IMG/VR virus record: IMGVR_UViG_3300021185_000113
Span: 1-24,545 of that record
From: a virus
Direction: 5' to 3' (one strand)
Length of the DNA stretch: 24,545 nucleotides
Shown here piece after piece: positions 16,843-23,047 of this stretch. Position 1 is the stretch's first letter, and every line of letters begins with the position of its first letter. The translations under genes were made by a program, and so were the position numbers. Below the pieces are notes generated by a model. That model did no database searches and was not told where the DNA came from. It saw only the letters and a program-made list of their open reading frames with translations.

Positions 16843-17516
16843 TGGAAATAAGTGCATCAACGGTAAAGATACTACAGAACTTTGCCAGTATAAACAGTAA
16901 TGTTGTTATTCAACCGGGTAATAAGATTATGACTATTGCTGAAGCTAAGAACGTTCTTAGTGAAGCTACTGTAACTGAACAGTTTGATAAACAAGTAGGT
17001 ATATATGACTTGCAGAACTTCTTAAGTGTGCTTGACCTAGTTGATAATCCTTCGGTTCAATTTAAAGATAATAATATGATTGTAGGCGGTAACGCTGGAC
17101 GTGCTATGGTAAAGTATTACTATGCTGATCCTGAGATGCTTACTACGATCGGAAAACCTATTAATATGCCTCAAGCAGATGTATCGTTTACGTTAGAGCA
17201 GTCTACGTTAAACGGTCTTAAGAAAGCTGCTGGCGTCTTTGGTCATAGTCAAGTATTGATTGAACCTGATAACGGTTCGGTTAAACTGACTGTTGTTGAT
17301 CCAGAGAATAGTACTGCTAATACTTACTCTATTATGGTTGAGGGTGAGTATAACTCAGAAGACTTTAGCTTTGTGCTAAACATAAACAACCTTAAAATTA
17401 TTGCTGATGACTATCAAGTTGATATCTCATCTAAACTTATATCACAATTCTCTAGTGTTAATCATGACGTAAAGTACTGGATTGCTCTAGAAAAAACATC
17501 TACTTATGGAGGCTAA
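16842..17516 (+). CDS. 45: DNA sliding clamp (gp45)
   Basis: The PCNA-like trimeric clamp that tethers polymerase gp43 to DNA and, in T4, also activates late transcription by binding gp55 and gp33. It has 224 residues (T4: 228). The N-terminus, ISASTVKILQNFASINSNVVIQPGN, resembles the T4 gp45 start, and the pattern of alternating strands and helices (e.g. YDLQNFLSVLDLV and VKLTVVDPENSTANTYSIMV) continues to the end. The gene shares one base with the gene 46 stop. The last codons and stop contain the GGAGG ribosome site of the next small gene. Its placement before the clamp loader genes is as in T4. Confidence 0.92.
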   Translation: MEISASTVKILQNFASINSNVVIQPGNKIMTIAEAKNVLSEATVTEQFDKQVGIYDLQNFLSVLDLVDNPSVQFKDNNMIVGGNAGRAMVKYYYADPEMLTTIGKPINMPQADVSFTLEQSTLNGLKKAAGVFGHSQVLIEPDNGSVKLTVVDPENSTANTYSIMVEGEYNSEDFSFVLNINNLKIIADDYQVDISSKLISQFSSVNHDVKYWIALEKTSTYGG

Positions 17517-17517
17517 G

Positions 17518-17736
17518 ATGGCTAAAGAAGAAACAAATACACCAGATCACTCTGAGATCTATGAGATCGCTAACAAGACATCACGCAGCACAGTTGCTGT
17601 TATTGATGCGTTAACTGGACGAGGAGCATTTAAAGGTGAAGAGCTATCAACTATTGGTCAGCTTCGCGATCAATGCTTACAAGCTATTCAACTAGCAGAA
17701 GCTTATCAACAAGAAATGGCTACTGAATCGGAGTAG
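17518..17736 (+). CDS. Small protein between gp45 and gp44, unknown function
   Basis: A 72-residue acidic protein with no family I can name. It begins with a polar, probably disordered segment (MAKEETNTPDHS) and then appears all-helical: IYEIANKTSRSTVAVIDALTG, and LSTIGQLRDQCLQAIQLAEAYQQEM. I chose ATG 17518, one base after the gene 45 stop, because GGAGG (17508-17512) lies just upstream; the in-frame ATG at 17506 lies before that site. Close packing with gene 45 supports a real gene. A role with the replisome is possible only by position. Confidence 0.72.
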   Translation: MAKEETNTPDHSEIYEIANKTSRSTVAVIDALTGRGAFKGEELSTIGQLRDQCLQAIQLAEAYQQEMATESE

Positions 17737-18720: not shown

Positions 18721-19097
18721 TGAATCCTTTTACCTATCTAAACAGTATTAACTTCTCTAAAGAAGATGTTATGGTCGATGACGTTGCTGAGAAAGGCTAT
18801 AACTCTTTTCTTATTAATCGCTCTATGTCCTACTTCTATGATACTGTTGGCATTGCAAACGTAATGAATCGCTATCATCACCTAGATAATAAACTACAAT
18901 ATCACTTTCTTATAAATATCATTCGTAAACGTAAAAGATTTTCGAAATGGATGAAACCAGAAACTGAGAGTGATATTGAAGTGATTAAAGAATACTATGG
19001 ATATAGCAATGATAAAGCTAAACAAGTACTATCCCTTCTATCACCTGAAAACATAAAAATTATAAAACAGAAGGTGAGTAAAGGTGGAAGAAAATAA
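18720..19097 (+). CDS. 62: Clamp loader small subunit (gp62), short form
   Basis: The small, non-ATPase clamp-loader subunit, identified mainly by its place between gp44 and RegA and by the FTYLNSINFSKED start and the helical FLINRSMSYFYDTVGIANVMN segment that resemble gp62. It has 125 residues, against 187 in T4, so it is much reduced; short forms are what I expect in marine relatives. The C-terminus is basic (IIKQKVSKGGRK). The start shares the gp44 stop as TGATG; the end overlaps the RegA GTG start by 14 bases. A TATAAATA sequence at 18911-18918 lies inside the gene and is probably chance. Confidence 0.85.
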   Translation: MNPFTYLNSINFSKEDVMVDDVAEKGYNSFLINRSMSYFYDTVGIANVMNRYHHLDNKLQYHFLINIIRKRKRFSKWMKPETESDIEVIKEYYGYSNDKAKQVLSLLSPENIKIIKQKVSKGGRK

Positions 19098-19491
19098 TAT
19101 AGTCGAATGGCAACCTCAAGACATGCTCGAGGTGGTCTTAAACGAACCAGATGATTTTCTAAAAGTAAGAGAGACGTTGACCCGAATAGGAGTCGCCTCT
19201 CGTAAAGATAAGAAATTATTCCAATCATGTCATATACTACATAAGCAGGGGCGATACTTCATCGTTCATTTTAAAGAGCTGTTTATGTTAGATGGAAAAA
19301 AAGCTAATCTAGAAGCTAATGATGTAGAGCGTAGAAATACTATTACAACATTGCTTAGTGATTGGGGTCTTGTAGAGATACAAGGAGGGTCAGAACTTAG
19401 ATGTGCTCCTCTACGTCAGATCAAGATCATCCCATTTAAGGAGAAGGCACAATGGGAATTATGTCCGAAATATAATATCGGAAATAAATAA
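19084..19491 (+). CDS. regA: Translational repressor RegA
   Basis: RegA binds the start regions of early mRNAs and blocks ribosomes, shutting off early proteins including itself and clamp genes. From GTG 19084 it has 135 residues (T4: 122). The match is very strong: EPDDFLKVRETLTRIGVASRKDK, then QSCHILHKQGRYFIVHFKELF, LSDWGLVEI and the end WELCPKYNIGN. An in-frame ATG at 19123 aligns with the T4 start (MLEVVL against MIEITL) and would give 122 residues, but has no visible ribosome site, whereas AGGTGAG lies just before the GTG. I list the GTG start, with the ATG as a real alternative. Confidence 0.95.
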   Translation: MEENNIVEWQPQDMLEVVLNEPDDFLKVRETLTRIGVASRKDKKLFQSCHILHKQGRYFIVHFKELFMLDGKKANLEANDVERRNTITTLLSDWGLVEIQGGSELRCAPLRQIKIIPFKEKAQWELCPKYNIGNK

Positions 19492-19497
19492 CTTTTT

Positions 19498-19534
19498 AGT
19501 TGCTTTCTAAAAAATAAAAACTATATATAATATA
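19498..19534 (+). promoter_or_regulatory. Promoter-like element before the hsp20 cassette
   Basis: AGTTGCTT (19498-19505) and TATAATATA (19526-19534) repeat the two elements seen before genes 55 and 43. TTGCTT to TATAAT spacing is 20 bases, 3 more than in the other two copies; TATATA at 19524 would give 18. It is 57 bases before the hsp20 ATG. Confidence 0.6.
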
Positions 19535-19590
19535 GCGATGCAGAATAATCTGGTCGCATATCAATCTTGCTTGCTCAAAAGGAGATAACA

Positions 19591-20061
19591 ATGACAGGCT
19601 TACAAACACTATTCCCCCGATCATCTTTCGTTGGTTTTGACCATCTGTTCAACGAACTAGAGTGGACAGCTAAACATGCTCAAGACCATTATCCCCCACA
19701 TAACATTATTAAACAAGGCGATGAGCAATATCTCATTGAATTGGCTATTGCGGGATTTACAAAGGAAGAGATCTCAGTAGAAGTTAAAGATAGAACTTTG
19801 ACTGTAAAAGGTGAACACGTTTCTAAAGGGAGAGAATTTATCCATCGTGGCATTTCGACAAAGAAATTTAAACGAACCTTTAGGCTGTCCGAACATGTAA
19901 ATGTAAACGGAGCAGACATTCAGGACGGAATTCTGGCAATTGAATTGCAGTATGTCATTCCTGAAGAAATGCGTCCTCGTAAAATCAATATTGGTCAAAC
20001 GAGGAAAACAAATGACACAACTAATACTAATACAAGCCAACTTCTTACAGAACGCAATTAG
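19591..20061 (+). CDS. hsp20: Small heat-shock protein Hsp20 (IbpA-like)
   Basis: A 156-residue alpha-crystallin-domain chaperone that would hold unfolding proteins. The N-terminus, LFPRSSFVGFDHLFNELE, is of the bacterial IbpA type. The crystallin domain runs from about 50 to 137: YLIELAIAGFTKEEISVEVKDRTLTVKGEH, then FKRTFRLSEHVNV and the signature GADIQDGILAIEL. The C-terminal KINI is the I-x-I type tail motif for oligomer contacts. The start is ATG 19591, behind AAAAGGAGATAAC; an in-frame TTG upstream is less likely. It has its own promoter-like element, and its last 50 bases overlap the DUF1127 gene. Hsp20 genes are common in marine T4-like phages. Confidence 0.92.
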   Translation: MTGLQTLFPRSSFVGFDHLFNELEWTAKHAQDHYPPHNIIKQGDEQYLIELAIAGFTKEEISVEVKDRTLTVKGEHVSKGREFIHRGISTKKFKRTFRLSEHVNVNGADIQDGILAIELQYVIPEEMRPRKINIGQTRKTNDTTNTNTSQLLTERN

Positions 20062-20242
20062 AGCTCTGTTAGATCTATTTAAAGACGCAAACTCATCACG
20101 CAAGGAAATGTCAACAGCTAGAAAGACTATTAAGGAGCTAAACAAGCTTTCTGATAAAGACTTACTAGACATCGGTATTTGTCGTGGAGACATCTGGAGT
20201 GTCGCTCATAATAAGACCGACGAATTAAGGAGACGTTTCTAA
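20012..20242 (+). CDS. DUF1127 (YjiS-like) small protein
   Basis: A 76-residue protein whose residues about 37-62 carry the DUF1127 signature: TIKELNKLSDKDLLDIGICRGDI, i.e. L-x-x-L-s-D-x-x-L-x-D-I-G-I-x-R-x-x-I. Small DUF1127 proteins are common in Alphaproteobacteria and have been linked there to RNA turnover and stress or nutrient responses; that function is family knowledge, not shown here. The N-terminal about 25 residues form a possible amphipathic helix. I chose ATG 20012 because GAGGA lies 7 bases upstream; it sits inside the end of hsp20 in another frame. The stop overlaps the next ATG by one base. It looks like a host-derived gene. Confidence 0.85.
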   Translation: MTQLILIQANFLQNAIRALLDLFKDANSSRKEMSTARKTIKELNKLSDKDLLDIGICRGDIWSVAHNKTDELRRRF

Positions 20243-20412
20243 TGACTGATGCAGTAATGAAATATGCCTTAGCACCTGTAGGTGGACTCTTTAGTGGATT
20301 TAATAGCTTCTTCCTATCATTAGGAAAAGCAAGAGCAGCATCTGAGCTTCATAGAATGGGTTACCATGAAGAAGCAAAGTATCTAATGCTGACTGACGCA
20401 AAAGACTTGTAA
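20242..20412 (+). CDS. Small protein, 56 aa, third gene of the hsp20 cassette
   Basis: A 56-residue frame starting ATG 20242 (TAATG overlap with DUF1127) and ending TAA 20410-20412, behind AAGGAGACG. The first half is a hydrophobic Gly/Phe-rich stretch (YALAPVGGLFSGFNSFFLSLG, quoted here as about residues 8-28) that could touch a membrane or be a buried helix; the second half is a helix with the pattern ARAASELHRMGYHEEAKYLM. I do not recognise a named family, though the 'A..L.RMG...EA..LM' pattern recalls small proteins next to DUF1127 genes in proteobacteria (impression only). A strong terminator follows 18 bases later. Confidence 0.75.
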   Translation: MTDAVMKYALAPVGGLFSGFNSFFLSLGKARAASELHRMGYHEEAKYLMLTDAKDL

Positions 20413-20430
20413 ATGTCAATACAACTATGA

Positions 20431-20460
20431 AAAGGGGCTGTTGTGGCCCCTTTCCCTTTT
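20431..20460 (+). terminator. Intrinsic terminator after the hsp20 cassette
   Basis: AAAGGGGC (20431-20438) pairs with GCCCCTTT (20446-20453) around a 7-base loop, followed by CCCTTTTTC. The 8-bp stem with a T-rich tail is a good intrinsic terminator. It closes the cassette just before the promoter of gene 43. Confidence 0.88.
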
Positions 20461-20462
20461 TC

Positions 20463-20496
20463 AGTTGCATACTATATCGATATATACTATAATATA
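20463..20496 (+). promoter_or_regulatory. Sigma70-like promoter before gene 43
   Basis: TTGCAT (20465-20470) and TATAAT (20488-20493) are 17 bases apart, with AGTTGCAT and TATAATATA identical to the copy before gene 55. It lies directly behind the terminator and 26 bases before the polymerase ATG. Confidence 0.78.
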
Positions 20497-20521
20497 GTTT
20501 GTTGACACTAGGAGGCGTCAT

Positions 20522-23047
20522 ATGAACTTTTATACAAGCGTTAATCGATATGGTAATAGTATTCTATACAGAGGTATAGAAGATGGAGAGCGTGTAGCTA
20601 AGAAGGTAAAGTATATGCCTACTTTGTTCGTTAACGCTACTCATGAGACTGGTTGGTATAATCTACAGAATCAACCTGTATTACCTAAGACGTTTGATAC
20701 TATGAGAGACGCTAAGGACTTTATGAAGCAGTACGAAGGTGTAGATAACTATACTGTATATGGTACTACTAACTATGTTACTCAATATATCAATGATCGC
20801 TTTCCTGATGCTCCTAAGTTTGATAGAGATAAAGTAAACGTTACTTCTATTGATATTGAGGTAGCTTCTGACGAAGGCTTTCCGTTCGTAGAGCAAGCAG
20901 CTCATCCTGTTATCTCTATCACGATGAAAAATAATATAGATAATATATATCGAGTATGGGGACTATATGACTACAATGAAGACGATTGCACAGTTGAAGG
21001 CGTTGACGCTATCCAATATATCAAGTGTAAGGACGAGATTGATCTTCTATTATCTTGGCTGGCTTACTGGCACGATCCAAAGTATTGCCCCGATATTGTT
21101 ACTGGCTGGAACACTCGTCTATTTGATTTCCCATATCTCATCAACAGGGTAAAGAATATCATAGGCGGTGATGTCTATAAGAAGTTCTCTCCTTGGGGTA
21201 TAGTAGATCAACGAAACATTATGATGGCTCGTGGAGAAGTAATTGCATACGAGATGGCTGGTATTCAGCAGTTAGATTACTATGACTTGTTTACTAAATT
21301 CGGTTATACTTACGGTATGCAGGAGTCATATAAACTAGATCATATAGCGCACGTAGTACTGGGAGAGCGTAAGCTCTCCTATGATGAGCATGGTTCTCTG
21401 CATGGATTATACAAGCATGACTTTCAGAAGTTCATTGACTATAATATAAAAGACGTTCAGATTGTTGATAGACTAGAAGAGAAGATGGGCTTAATTACGC
21501 TTGCTATGACTATGGCTTATAGGGGTGGAGTTAACTATTCAGAGACTTTCGGTACTGTGCAGATCTGGGACTCTATTCTATATCGTTTACTATTCAAGCA
21601 GCAGATAGCTTGCCCTCCTAAGTTTAGTAAAGAGAAGGTTCCTTATCCTGGAGCGTATGTTAAAGATCCTCAGACTGGTATGCATGACTGGGTAGTATCT
21701 TTTGACCTTAACTCTCTCTATCCTATGATTATTGTTCAGTATAATATGAGTCCTGAGACTGTATTGCCTGGCAAAGAGCATCTAGGATTAGATCCTGTAG
21801 AGAAACTCTTGAGTGATGCTGAGGTTAATATACCTGAAGGTACTACTATGGCTGCCTCGGGTGTTAAGTTTAGTAAAGATCAGGTAGGTATTATTCCTGC
21901 TATCATTAAGCAGTACTATAACGAACGTAGACTTATTAAGAAAGCTATGCTTGATACTAAGCAAGAGTATGAGAATACTCCTACTAAGCGTCTAGAGAAT
22001 AAGATGACTATCTTAGAGAATCAACAGATGTCTATTAAGATTCTTATGAACTCTTTGTATGGTGCTCTAGGTAATAAGCATTTCCGTTACTTTAATAATC
22101 ACGTTGCAGAAGCTATTACTACTTCAGGTCAGTTATCTATTCGTTGGGCTGAGAATGCTATCAATAAAGAGATGAATGCTGCTCTAGAGACTGACGATAA
22201 AGACTATGTGATTGCTATTGATACTGATTCGTTGTATGTGAATATGAATGAGCTTGTTAAGAAGTTTAATCCTAAAGATCCTGTTAAGTTCTTAGATAAG
22301 ATATGTCGTGAGCATTTCGAAGGTGTACTAGAGAAGTCATATGCTGTACTGGCTAAGAAGCTAGACGTTATGGAAAATCGTATGGAGATGTCTCGTGAGG
22401 TTATTGCTAACCGAGGTGTATGGATTGCTAAGAAGCGTTATATCTTAAACGTTCATAATAACGAAGGTGTGCAGTATGCTGAACCTAAGATGAAGATGAT
22501 GGGCGTAGATGCTGTACGCTCTTCTACTCCTCAGGTCTGTCGTGATAAGTTTAAGAAGATATTTAAGGTTATTATTGACGAAGGTGAGACTGCTACTCAA
22601 AGGTTTATTGCTGACTTCAAGAAGGAATGGAAGCAGCTTCCTCCTGAGTCTGTATCGTTTCCTAGAGGATGTAATATATCTAAGAAGAAGGACGGTGTAC
22701 CTTTTACTTGGGCTGATAAGAAAACGATCTATAAGAAAGCTTGTCCTATTCATGTAAGAGGTGCTCTGTTATATAATCATTATATAAAGCAAGCTGGCCT
22801 AGATCAGAAGTATGAGCTAGTACAGAACGGTGAGAAGATTAAGTTCGTCTATCTTAAGACTCCTAACTCTATAAAGGAGAACGTTATTGCTTATGCTAAC
22901 GATCTACCTAAAGAGCTTGACTTACATCGATTTGTAGACTATAATAAGCAATATGAGAAAGCATTCGTTGACCCTATCAAGCATCTACTCGATGCTCTTA
23001 ACTGGGATGTTGAACCTGTAGCTACGTTGGAGGACTTCTTTGTATAG
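20522..23047 (+). CDS. 43: DNA polymerase (gp43), family B with 3'-5' exonuclease
   Basis: The replicative polymerase, 841 residues (T4: 898). Proofreading motifs are complete: Exo I SIDIEVAS (Asp111, Glu113), Exo II TGWNTRLFDFPYL (Asn197, Asp202) and Exo III YNIKD (Tyr307, Asp311). Polymerase motifs are complete: motif A FDLNSLYPMII (Asp395), motif B KILMNSLYGALGN (Lys506, Tyr513, Gly514) and motif C IDTDSLYV (Asp567, Asp569). The C-terminus ends TLEDFFV, a clamp-binding type tail similar to that of gp55 and to the end of T4 gp43. A GGAGG ribosome site lies 7 bases upstream. It has its own promoter, and the next gene starts two bases after its stop. Confidence 0.98.
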   Translation: MNFYTSVNRYGNSILYRGIEDGERVAKKVKYMPTLFVNATHETGWYNLQNQPVLPKTFDTMRDAKDFMKQYEGVDNYTVYGTTNYVTQYINDRFPDAPKFDRDKVNVTSIDIEVASDEGFPFVEQAAHPVISITMKNNIDNIYRVWGLYDYNEDDCTVEGVDAIQYIKCKDEIDLLLSWLAYWHDPKYCPDIVTGWNTRLFDFPYLINRVKNIIGGDVYKKFSPWGIVDQRNIMMARGEVIAYEMAGIQQLDYYDLFTKFGYTYGMQESYKLDHIAHVVLGERKLSYDEHGSLHGLYKHDFQKFIDYNIKDVQIVDRLEEKMGLITLAMTMAYRGGVNYSETFGTVQIWDSILYRLLFKQQIACPPKFSKEKVPYPGAYVKDPQTGMHDWVVSFDLNSLYPMIIVQYNMSPETVLPGKEHLGLDPVEKLLSDAEVNIPEGTTMAASGVKFSKDQVGIIPAIIKQYYNERRLIKKAMLDTKQEYENTPTKRLENKMTILENQQMSIKILMNSLYGALGNKHFRYFNNHVAEAITTSGQLSIRWAENAINKEMNAALETDDKDYVIAIDTDSLYVNMNELVKKFNPKDPVKFLDKICREHFEGVLEKSYAVLAKKLDVMENRMEMSREVIANRGVWIAKKRYILNVHNNEGVQYAEPKMKMMGVDAVRSSTPQVCRDKFKKIFKVIIDEGETATQRFIADFKKEWKQLPPESVSFPRGCNISKKKDGVPFTWADKKTIYKKACPIHVRGALLYNHYIKQAGLDQKYELVQNGEKIKFVYLKTPNSIKENVIAYANDLPKELDLHRFVDYNKQYEKAFVDPIKHLLDALNWDVEPVATLEDFFV

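Follow-up and report, generated by a model that had tools for sequence, protein, structure and literature searches.

The window analysed here is the whole 24,545-base virus record IMGVR_UViG_3300021185_000113, from a marine, T4-like virus of bacteria. Its replication genes follow a T4-like order: gp45, gp44, gp62, regA, hsp20, a DUF1127 gene (B), a 56-aa ORF (C) and gp43. The names gp62, regA and hsp20 come from Pfam and PHROG matches and gp43 from tblastn; the remaining names are our own reading. All features described below from regA to gp43 are on the plus strand. The translational repressor regA (19084-19491; Pfam Translat_reg, E 9e-43) lies directly 5' of hsp20, as a preliminary description of this DNA had stated. 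The gene hsp20 (19591-20061) encodes a small heat-shock protein of 156 aa (Pfam HSP20, E 1.9e-17; phrog_432, Hsp20, E 3.4e-36) and is followed by B (20012-20242, 76 aa) and C (20242-20412), which overlaps B in a TAATG. The 3' neighbour is the gp43 DNA polymerase (20522-23047), and among annotated phage polymerases it is closest to the one from Phage C48C1, aligned by tblastn over the whole length at 55% identity. Another 76-aa ORF is found between gp45 and gp44 (17506-17736) and resembles phrog_13789 only weakly (E 0.0027).

The preliminary description had read a DUF1127 protein at 20012-20242, and the ORF lies exactly there, with a match to Pfam PF06568 at E 4e-8 and 33.3 bits, above the gathering cut-off of 23.3. 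The match spans residues 36-61, it is the single DUF1127 match in the whole virus record (20117-20194), and the same profile matches all 17 relatives given to it at E <= 0.1. The 50-base out-of-phase overlap with hsp20 that had been described is also real (20012-20061, 50 nt, in another frame). The frame is conserved in close relatives: 27 ungapped near-relative loci, including the window, reduce to 12 distinct DNA versions, none of which has a stop in the B frame, whereas the two remaining forward frames contain 5-11 stops. In this set the dN/dS of B is 0.28, indicating purifying selection. The hsp20 overlap shows less synonymous change (pS 0.09) than the rest of the gene (0.37), in line with double coding. 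The data support a genuine phage DUF1127 protein that is structurally coupled to hsp20. An AlphaFold2 model of B (mean pLDDT 78) has helices at residues 2-44, 48-54, 58-65 and 69-75. Searches for relatives among solved structures gave none by sequence, with two matches only at E 0.44 and 0.94, and none at E <= 0.001 among eight matches by fold. Arginine makes up 9.2% of B, the same as the mean of 125 phage relatives, and 7.4% on average in 37 chromosomal relatives, a mean that covers only the DUF1127 loci fetched here.

A first scan of IMG/VR with protein B gave 107 matches at 80 loci, where the gene after B nearly always encodes a second small protein with the core GRARAAsELxRxGYHxEAKxLM, here called C. 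IMG/VR was then searched with separate alignments of B, C and A, a third small protein with the motif AKTEYGxDW; these had 237, 511 and 211 matches, respectively, and the best 80 of each were retained. The fetched loci were scanned with HMMs and near-identical loci were merged into 115 clusters, 113 of them viral and used for neighbour counts. A neighbour is a gene within 250 nt, counted only if the match lies at least 350 nt from the end of the contig or locus. Among the loci from the best matches listed, C neighbours B in 93 of 97 viral clusters and B neighbours C in 93 of 98, compared with 43 of 97 for hsp20 beside B; A is found before B in 39 of 97. Thus, the near-constant partner of B is C, not hsp20. 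The preliminary description mentioned neither this ORF nor the RNA element before hsp20. By starting point, B is present beside C in 29/29 cases when seeded on C alone (best 80 of 511 matches), C beside B in 46/48 when seeded on B by alignment (best 80 of 237), and B beside A in 35/42 when seeded on A (best 80 of 211).

The pairing is found in both gene orders and with or without hsp20, and the TAATG overlap is present in 60 of the 89 B-C junctions counted. The order C-B also occurs in the isolate Melnitz (genes 45-46). The exceptions to adjacency are L080, L176, L187 and the L252/L254 cluster. In L080 (3400-3821) and L176 (2779-3200), two other conserved small ORFs replace C between B and gp43; these we take to look phasin-like, and a Pfam search with the L080 pair gave nothing above the cut-off. 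Chromosomal and many phage DUF1127 genes occur without C, so a DUF1127 protein can generally do without this partner.

C itself has no family match in Pfam, NCBIfam or PHROG, and its relatives have only scattered weak matches in these collections. Within an annotated phage collection it is found in four Melnitz records only. In near relatives its dN/dS is 0.245. The AlphaFold2 model of C is weak (mean pLDDT 66), with predicted helices at 3-39 and 42-50. The idea that C is a divergent DUF1127 protein was rejected, as hhalign of the B and C alignments gives a probability of 3%.

One phage contig, IMGVR_UViG_3300025832_000005 (L235, 849-5137), carries hsp20 with a thermometer-like UTR, clpS, an IMPDH/GMP-reductase-like gene, A-B-C and an AlgH-like gene, a gene set that forms a protein-quality neighbourhood. 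Two other phage loci have a fatty-acid-desaturase/hydroxylase-like gene near A-B-C (L034, 868-2361, by PF00487; L207, 1513-2577, by eye), and L034 also has a NifU-like gene there. Proteins of about 260 aa that look alike by eye occur near B-C in L082 (2469-3251), L270 (2055-2834) and L161 (2460-2849); the one in L082 sits between regA and hsp20 and has no Pfam match.

The preliminary description regarded a phage DUF1127 gene as unusual, which the searches do not support. With tblastn at E <= 1, weak DUF1127-like matches, none covering 80% of the query, are found in 37 phage records with alphaproteobacterial or OM43 hosts, the Melnitz copy is annotated, and BFVD lists further phage proteins named DUF1127 or YjiS-like. 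Close reading of ten isolate phage regions revealed lone DUF1127 ORFs, mostly unnamed. In Siovirus-type phages and CRP-118, the lone gene adjoins ribonucleotide reductase, mostly behind mazG; others are found in Sinorhizobium phage phiM12, the jumbo phages Phosso and Atu_ph07, and further CRP phages. Roseobacter phage SIO1 has an unannotated DUF1127 ORF before its ribonucleotide reductase gene (L296, 1447-1629), and in SIO1 relatives with an annotated mazG, the ORF lies between mazG and the reductase. Phage DUF1127 is thus not new, and it is the B-C pair that stands out.

The putative 5'UTR of hsp20 contains a ROSE-like element (19535-19585), ending shortly before the hsp20 ATG at 19591. When 19400-20700 was compared with Rfam at permissive settings, the single non-trivial match was ROSE_3, over the whole model (19532-19596, 28.1 bits, E 0.0021; E 0.00022 when 141 nt were searched). 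The element is called ROSE-like here and is not assigned to ROSE_3 (RF02523), because the score is below the gathering score of 43 in the window as well as in Melnitz (34.1) and C48C1 (26.8). Rfam freshwater-2 also matches the region weakly (E 0.33) and may describe a related element. In the predicted fold, hairpin I (19535-19557) is stable and covarying, and hairpin II (19565-19585) pairs UCUU-(bulged G)-CUU with AAGGAGA, the Shine-Dalgarno sequence of hsp20.

For comparison, upstream regions of 87 nt were collected where hsp20 matched at E < 1e-20 and its ATG had a nearby Shine-Dalgarno sequence, giving 127 places and 51 distinct regions (50 relatives and the window). These were selected for the Shine-Dalgarno sequence, not for the UCUUGCU motif opposite to it, which is nevertheless invariant (51/51). 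The sequence of hairpin I is variable, and hairpin II has seven pairs in 42 regions and six in nine. Over the whole structure, 93.5% of cells are standard pairs, compared with 42-58% when the partners are slid. Cells changed on both sides number 76, compared with 24.5 in shuffles, and the signal lies in hairpin I; two of five shuffle measures, the pairs with both-side change and the number of pair types, are not above the shuffles. Hairpin II has no both-side change in this alignment, as the Shine-Dalgarno and anti-Shine-Dalgarno sequences hardly vary. C48C1 has A-U instead of U-A as the first pair of hairpin II, a compensatory change. A covariance model of these regions, R1, built without the isolates Melnitz, C48C1 and HTVC115P, was run on 63 chosen sources (391,568 bases), and every match precedes hsp20: the window, L233-L235, Melnitz (52.3 bits), C48C1 (35.5) and, weakly, HTVC115P (21.6, E 0.067). 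A further search matched the hsp20 5'UTR of cyanophage syn9 (L336, 1458-2151; 30.8 bits, E 1.7e-5).

Folded alone at 20 C, hairpin II pairs the Shine-Dalgarno sequence in 51/51 regions compared with 492/1020 shuffles, and in the window its predicted stability falls from -8.6 kcal/mol at 15 C to -3.9 kcal/mol at 37 C. When the first 12 nt of the gene are included in the UTR fold, the predicted unpaired probability of the Shine-Dalgarno sequence is 0.78 in the window and 0.65-0.73 as the mean of relatives, compared with 0.43-0.47 in shuffled sequences, because of a competing helix with the gene start. This open state in the longer nearest-neighbour fold is evidence against a thermometer. Judged by motif, pairing and covariation, the hsp20 5'UTR still looks like a ROSE-like RNA thermometer.

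Candidate signals for transcription lie around the three genes. A TATAATATAG box, a possible promoter, lies before hsp20 (19526-19535) and again before gp43 (20488-20497); allowing at most one mismatch, it has 18 matches in the window where 6.15 are expected. In 21 of the 51 upstream regions, an exact TATAAATA, which we take to be the T4 late-promoter consensus, is found 64-72 nt before hsp20, compared with 0.28 expected in shuffles. The box of the window has no relation to ACTATANNATATAG beyond chance, and a sigma-70 promoter scan gave no excess (4 found, 7.2 expected). A terminator-like hairpin with a T-rich tail (20431-20453, fold z -1.44) follows C; it is the only such site in 19000-21000, where 1.1 are expected by chance.

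Among named genomes, C matched only L082, a phage contig binned with a Rhodobacteraceae genome. This genome, G001, has three more C genes, one of which shares its contig with bacterial genes; these include a transporter whose relative in another genome is 73% identical. Within one Rhodobacteraceae genus, C is found in the chromosomes of 5 of 33 genomes (6 if G443 is included, which was not counted as its match, E 0.005, lies in a frame of 136 aa that contains a stop). C stands alone in four of them: G001 and G440 share one syntenic place, G458 and G460 another. At the two sites, dS is 0.64 with dN 0.040 and 0.23 with dN 0.026, and the lone copies are under strong purifying selection. In G459, truA and an xdhC-like gene (names by reading) flank a DUF1127 gene with C directly after it, and this DUF1127 protein scores 65.5 bits to window-type phage proteins compared with 47.0 to the best of 36 other chromosomal ones. 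The G459 pair was reached via C and not via the DUF1127 search. Each of the 33 genomes carries between 1 and 8 DUF1127 genes, and among the 30 DUF1127 loci retained from the genus search, only L307, on a phage-like contig, has an adjoining C.

Outside the genus, C matched 3 of 289 alphaproteobacterial class genomes at E <= 0.01, and two of these matches were discounted as weak and inside 413- and 441-aa frames, leaving G001 alone. The Rhodobacteraceae family sample gave 1 of 149 genomes. From these samples, C is apparently limited to one genus and phages at the given sensitivity. Protein A was found in 0 of the 33 genomes of the genus, in a search that had no positive control. In the C tree, which is unrooted and has few informative columns, the five chromosomal copies and the 28-row phage group of the window form a joint group of 33 rows (support 99/95), nested in a larger phage set; the five copies alone are supported at 82/0, with G459 as a long branch. 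This ties the phage group of the window to roseobacters and is compatible with transfer of C in either direction.

We suggest, with a probability of about one half, that hsp20-B-C is a temperature-gated phage operon in which B and C are a small regulator pair. In this operon, the DUF1127 gene would be the middle one of three. The ROSE-like thermometer would cover the Shine-Dalgarno sequence of hsp20 until warming or stress opens the hairpin and Hsp20 is made. B and C would be translated after hsp20 via the gene overlaps: as B starts within hsp20 and C in the stop codon of B, ribosomes loaded on hsp20 should carry all three. Hsp20 would protect proteins in virion assembly. B and C may act jointly, and their role is probably their own rather than a service to the chaperone, since the pair is retained where hsp20 is absent. 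In summary, the computed results cover the reading frames, the pairing of B and C, the overlaps, selection, the conservation of the RNA structure and the chromosomal C genes, and from these we infer a shared transcript of the three genes, its thermoregulation, joint translation, a contact between B and C, the role of Hsp20 and RNA as the target.

What B would act on can be approached by analogy with studied DUF1127 proteins. CcaF1 of Rhodobacter binds RNA and its gene sits behind an RpoHI/RpoHII promoter (PMC10253847), which provides a precedent for linking DUF1127 to heat. Like CcaF1, B could bind host RNA or RNA-processing partners and shift RNA turnover, and C could be a helical partner that sets the specificity or stability of B. 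The redirection of host RNA metabolism proposed in the preliminary description is therefore possible, but it is not the only precedent. In another study, the sensor kinase PhoR is the binding partner through which the DUF1127 proteins of Agrobacterium and E. coli (YjiS) act, CcaF1 can substitute for them in this role, and the authors call the contrast between RNA and kinase roles a puzzle (PMC12501420); Salmonella YjiS was found not to associate with RNA (PMC11707872). No CcsR-like small RNA was found near B by Rfam at gathering, and the best other Rfam matches in 19400-20700 are at chance level. RNA turnover is the likeliest target of B, but a tentative assignment, a little short of an even chance, and a sensor kinase such as PhoR is unlikely although a real contender; what is left falls to other targets. 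On the best reading, the operon would tune host stress and RNA or signalling physiology.

The overlap with hsp20 could be a matter of genome packing, with B-C as one interchangeable occupant of a slot that many marine T4-like phages would fill with one small ORF or another, and no link to heat. In syn9, an unrelated 66-aa ORF (gp169) overlaps hsp20 by 50 nt, in C48C1 a 34-aa ORF overlaps it by 26 nt, and hsp20 adjoins B in only 43 of the 97 clusters. This frequency also qualifies the tight coupling suggested earlier, since the overlap is real but hsp20 is an optional neighbour. However, B-C near hsp20 does recur in these 43 clusters, and hsp20 is directly followed by B in 47 clusters, with an overlap of 26-59 nt in 43 of them and of exactly 50 nt in 32. 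L235, which lacks the overlap, still has hsp20 and clpS near A-B-C, and packing would leave the B-C pairing intact. We consider packing an unlikely explanation of the locus. It is likewise doubtful that B holds or displaces a host sensor kinase, most plausibly PhoR, and so alters phosphate uptake during infection with C as a modulator. Besides the binding of PhoR by Agrobacterium DUF1127 proteins and YjiS and the complementation by the Rhodobacter protein, the Melnitz paper connects phosphate stress in marine phages with the genes mazG and phoH (PMC9004378), and the DUF1127 genes of Siovirus and CRP-118 lie between mazG and ribonucleotide reductase. However, it is loss of DUF1127, not gain, that raises phosphate uptake, so an extra copy should lower it, against the interest of the phage unless it is dominant-negative, and the window contains nothing indicating phosphate control.

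The chromosomal copies suggest a further possibility, in which B-C would serve phages as a factor for takeover or superinfection, while hosts would use the C genes that stand alone in their chromosomes as antidotes or decoys of phage origin. The five copies lie next to the phage group of the window in the tree, and four of the five occur without B, at two syntenic sites and under strong purifying selection. However, the tree is unrooted as to the direction of transfer and the five copies are weakly supported as a group of their own, toxicity and immunity are hypothetical, and a host gene acquired by phages would look alike. We regard this as improbable. Returning to the temperature-gated operon, its widest extension would be that in marine phages a thermometer-gated Hsp20 and B-C module reprograms host RNA turnover, while roseobacters and their phages exchange C and some hosts have fixed it, possibly blunting the pair. 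This is quite a speculative scenario, which we would not expect to hold in full.

In the literature covered, which consists largely of open papers, we found neither the B-C pair nor a phage ROSE-like element described. The pair, the phage ROSE-like element before hsp20 and the chromosomal C of a Rhodobacteraceae genus appear to be new. Two conflicting activities have been proposed for DUF1127, RNA binding and sensor-kinase binding, and the near-obligatory partner C could serve as a handle to pull out or modulate the target of the phage protein. The phages with putative ROSE-like elements before hsp20 infect methylotrophs and cyanobacteria and, as we infer, also roseobacters, and the Rhodobacteraceae are a candidate host group for this uncultured T4-like phage group. 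If the operon works as suggested, chaperone production by marine phages would be temperature-dependent, which bears on the effect of warming on infection, and the virus may carry a small heat-stress response of its own.

Compared with CcaF1, the small DUF1127 proteins of Agrobacterium and YjiS, B has the same domain and a similarly small size, and heat-related control has been described for the Rhodobacter protein. B differs in being phage-encoded, in overlapping hsp20, in having the partner C and in its arginine content of 9.2%, compared with about 14% given for the family (PMC12501420), and no CcsR-like or other Rfam small RNA was found beside it. T4-like cyanophages and Melnitz share with the window a homologous Hsp20 and a matching 5'UTR element, but in Melnitz, unlike the window, B and C are far from hsp20. 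A fourU thermometer is reportedly present in blyA of prophage SP-beta, which would also be an RNA thermometer in a phage genome, but of another class, before another gene and in another host. The closest counterpart of the element is the thermometer of Pseudomonas ibpA, which is a tested two-hairpin ROSE element with a U(U/C)GCU motif and a G opposite the Shine-Dalgarno sequence (PMC3669281). Each belongs to the 5'UTR of a gene for a small heat-shock protein and has two hairpins, and in each the Shine-Dalgarno sequence faces U(U/C)GCU, with the opposing G and a U-G pair. Unlike that of ibpA, the element described here is phage-borne, is known from its sequence and predicted fold, and heads a putative operon with a DUF1127 gene and C.
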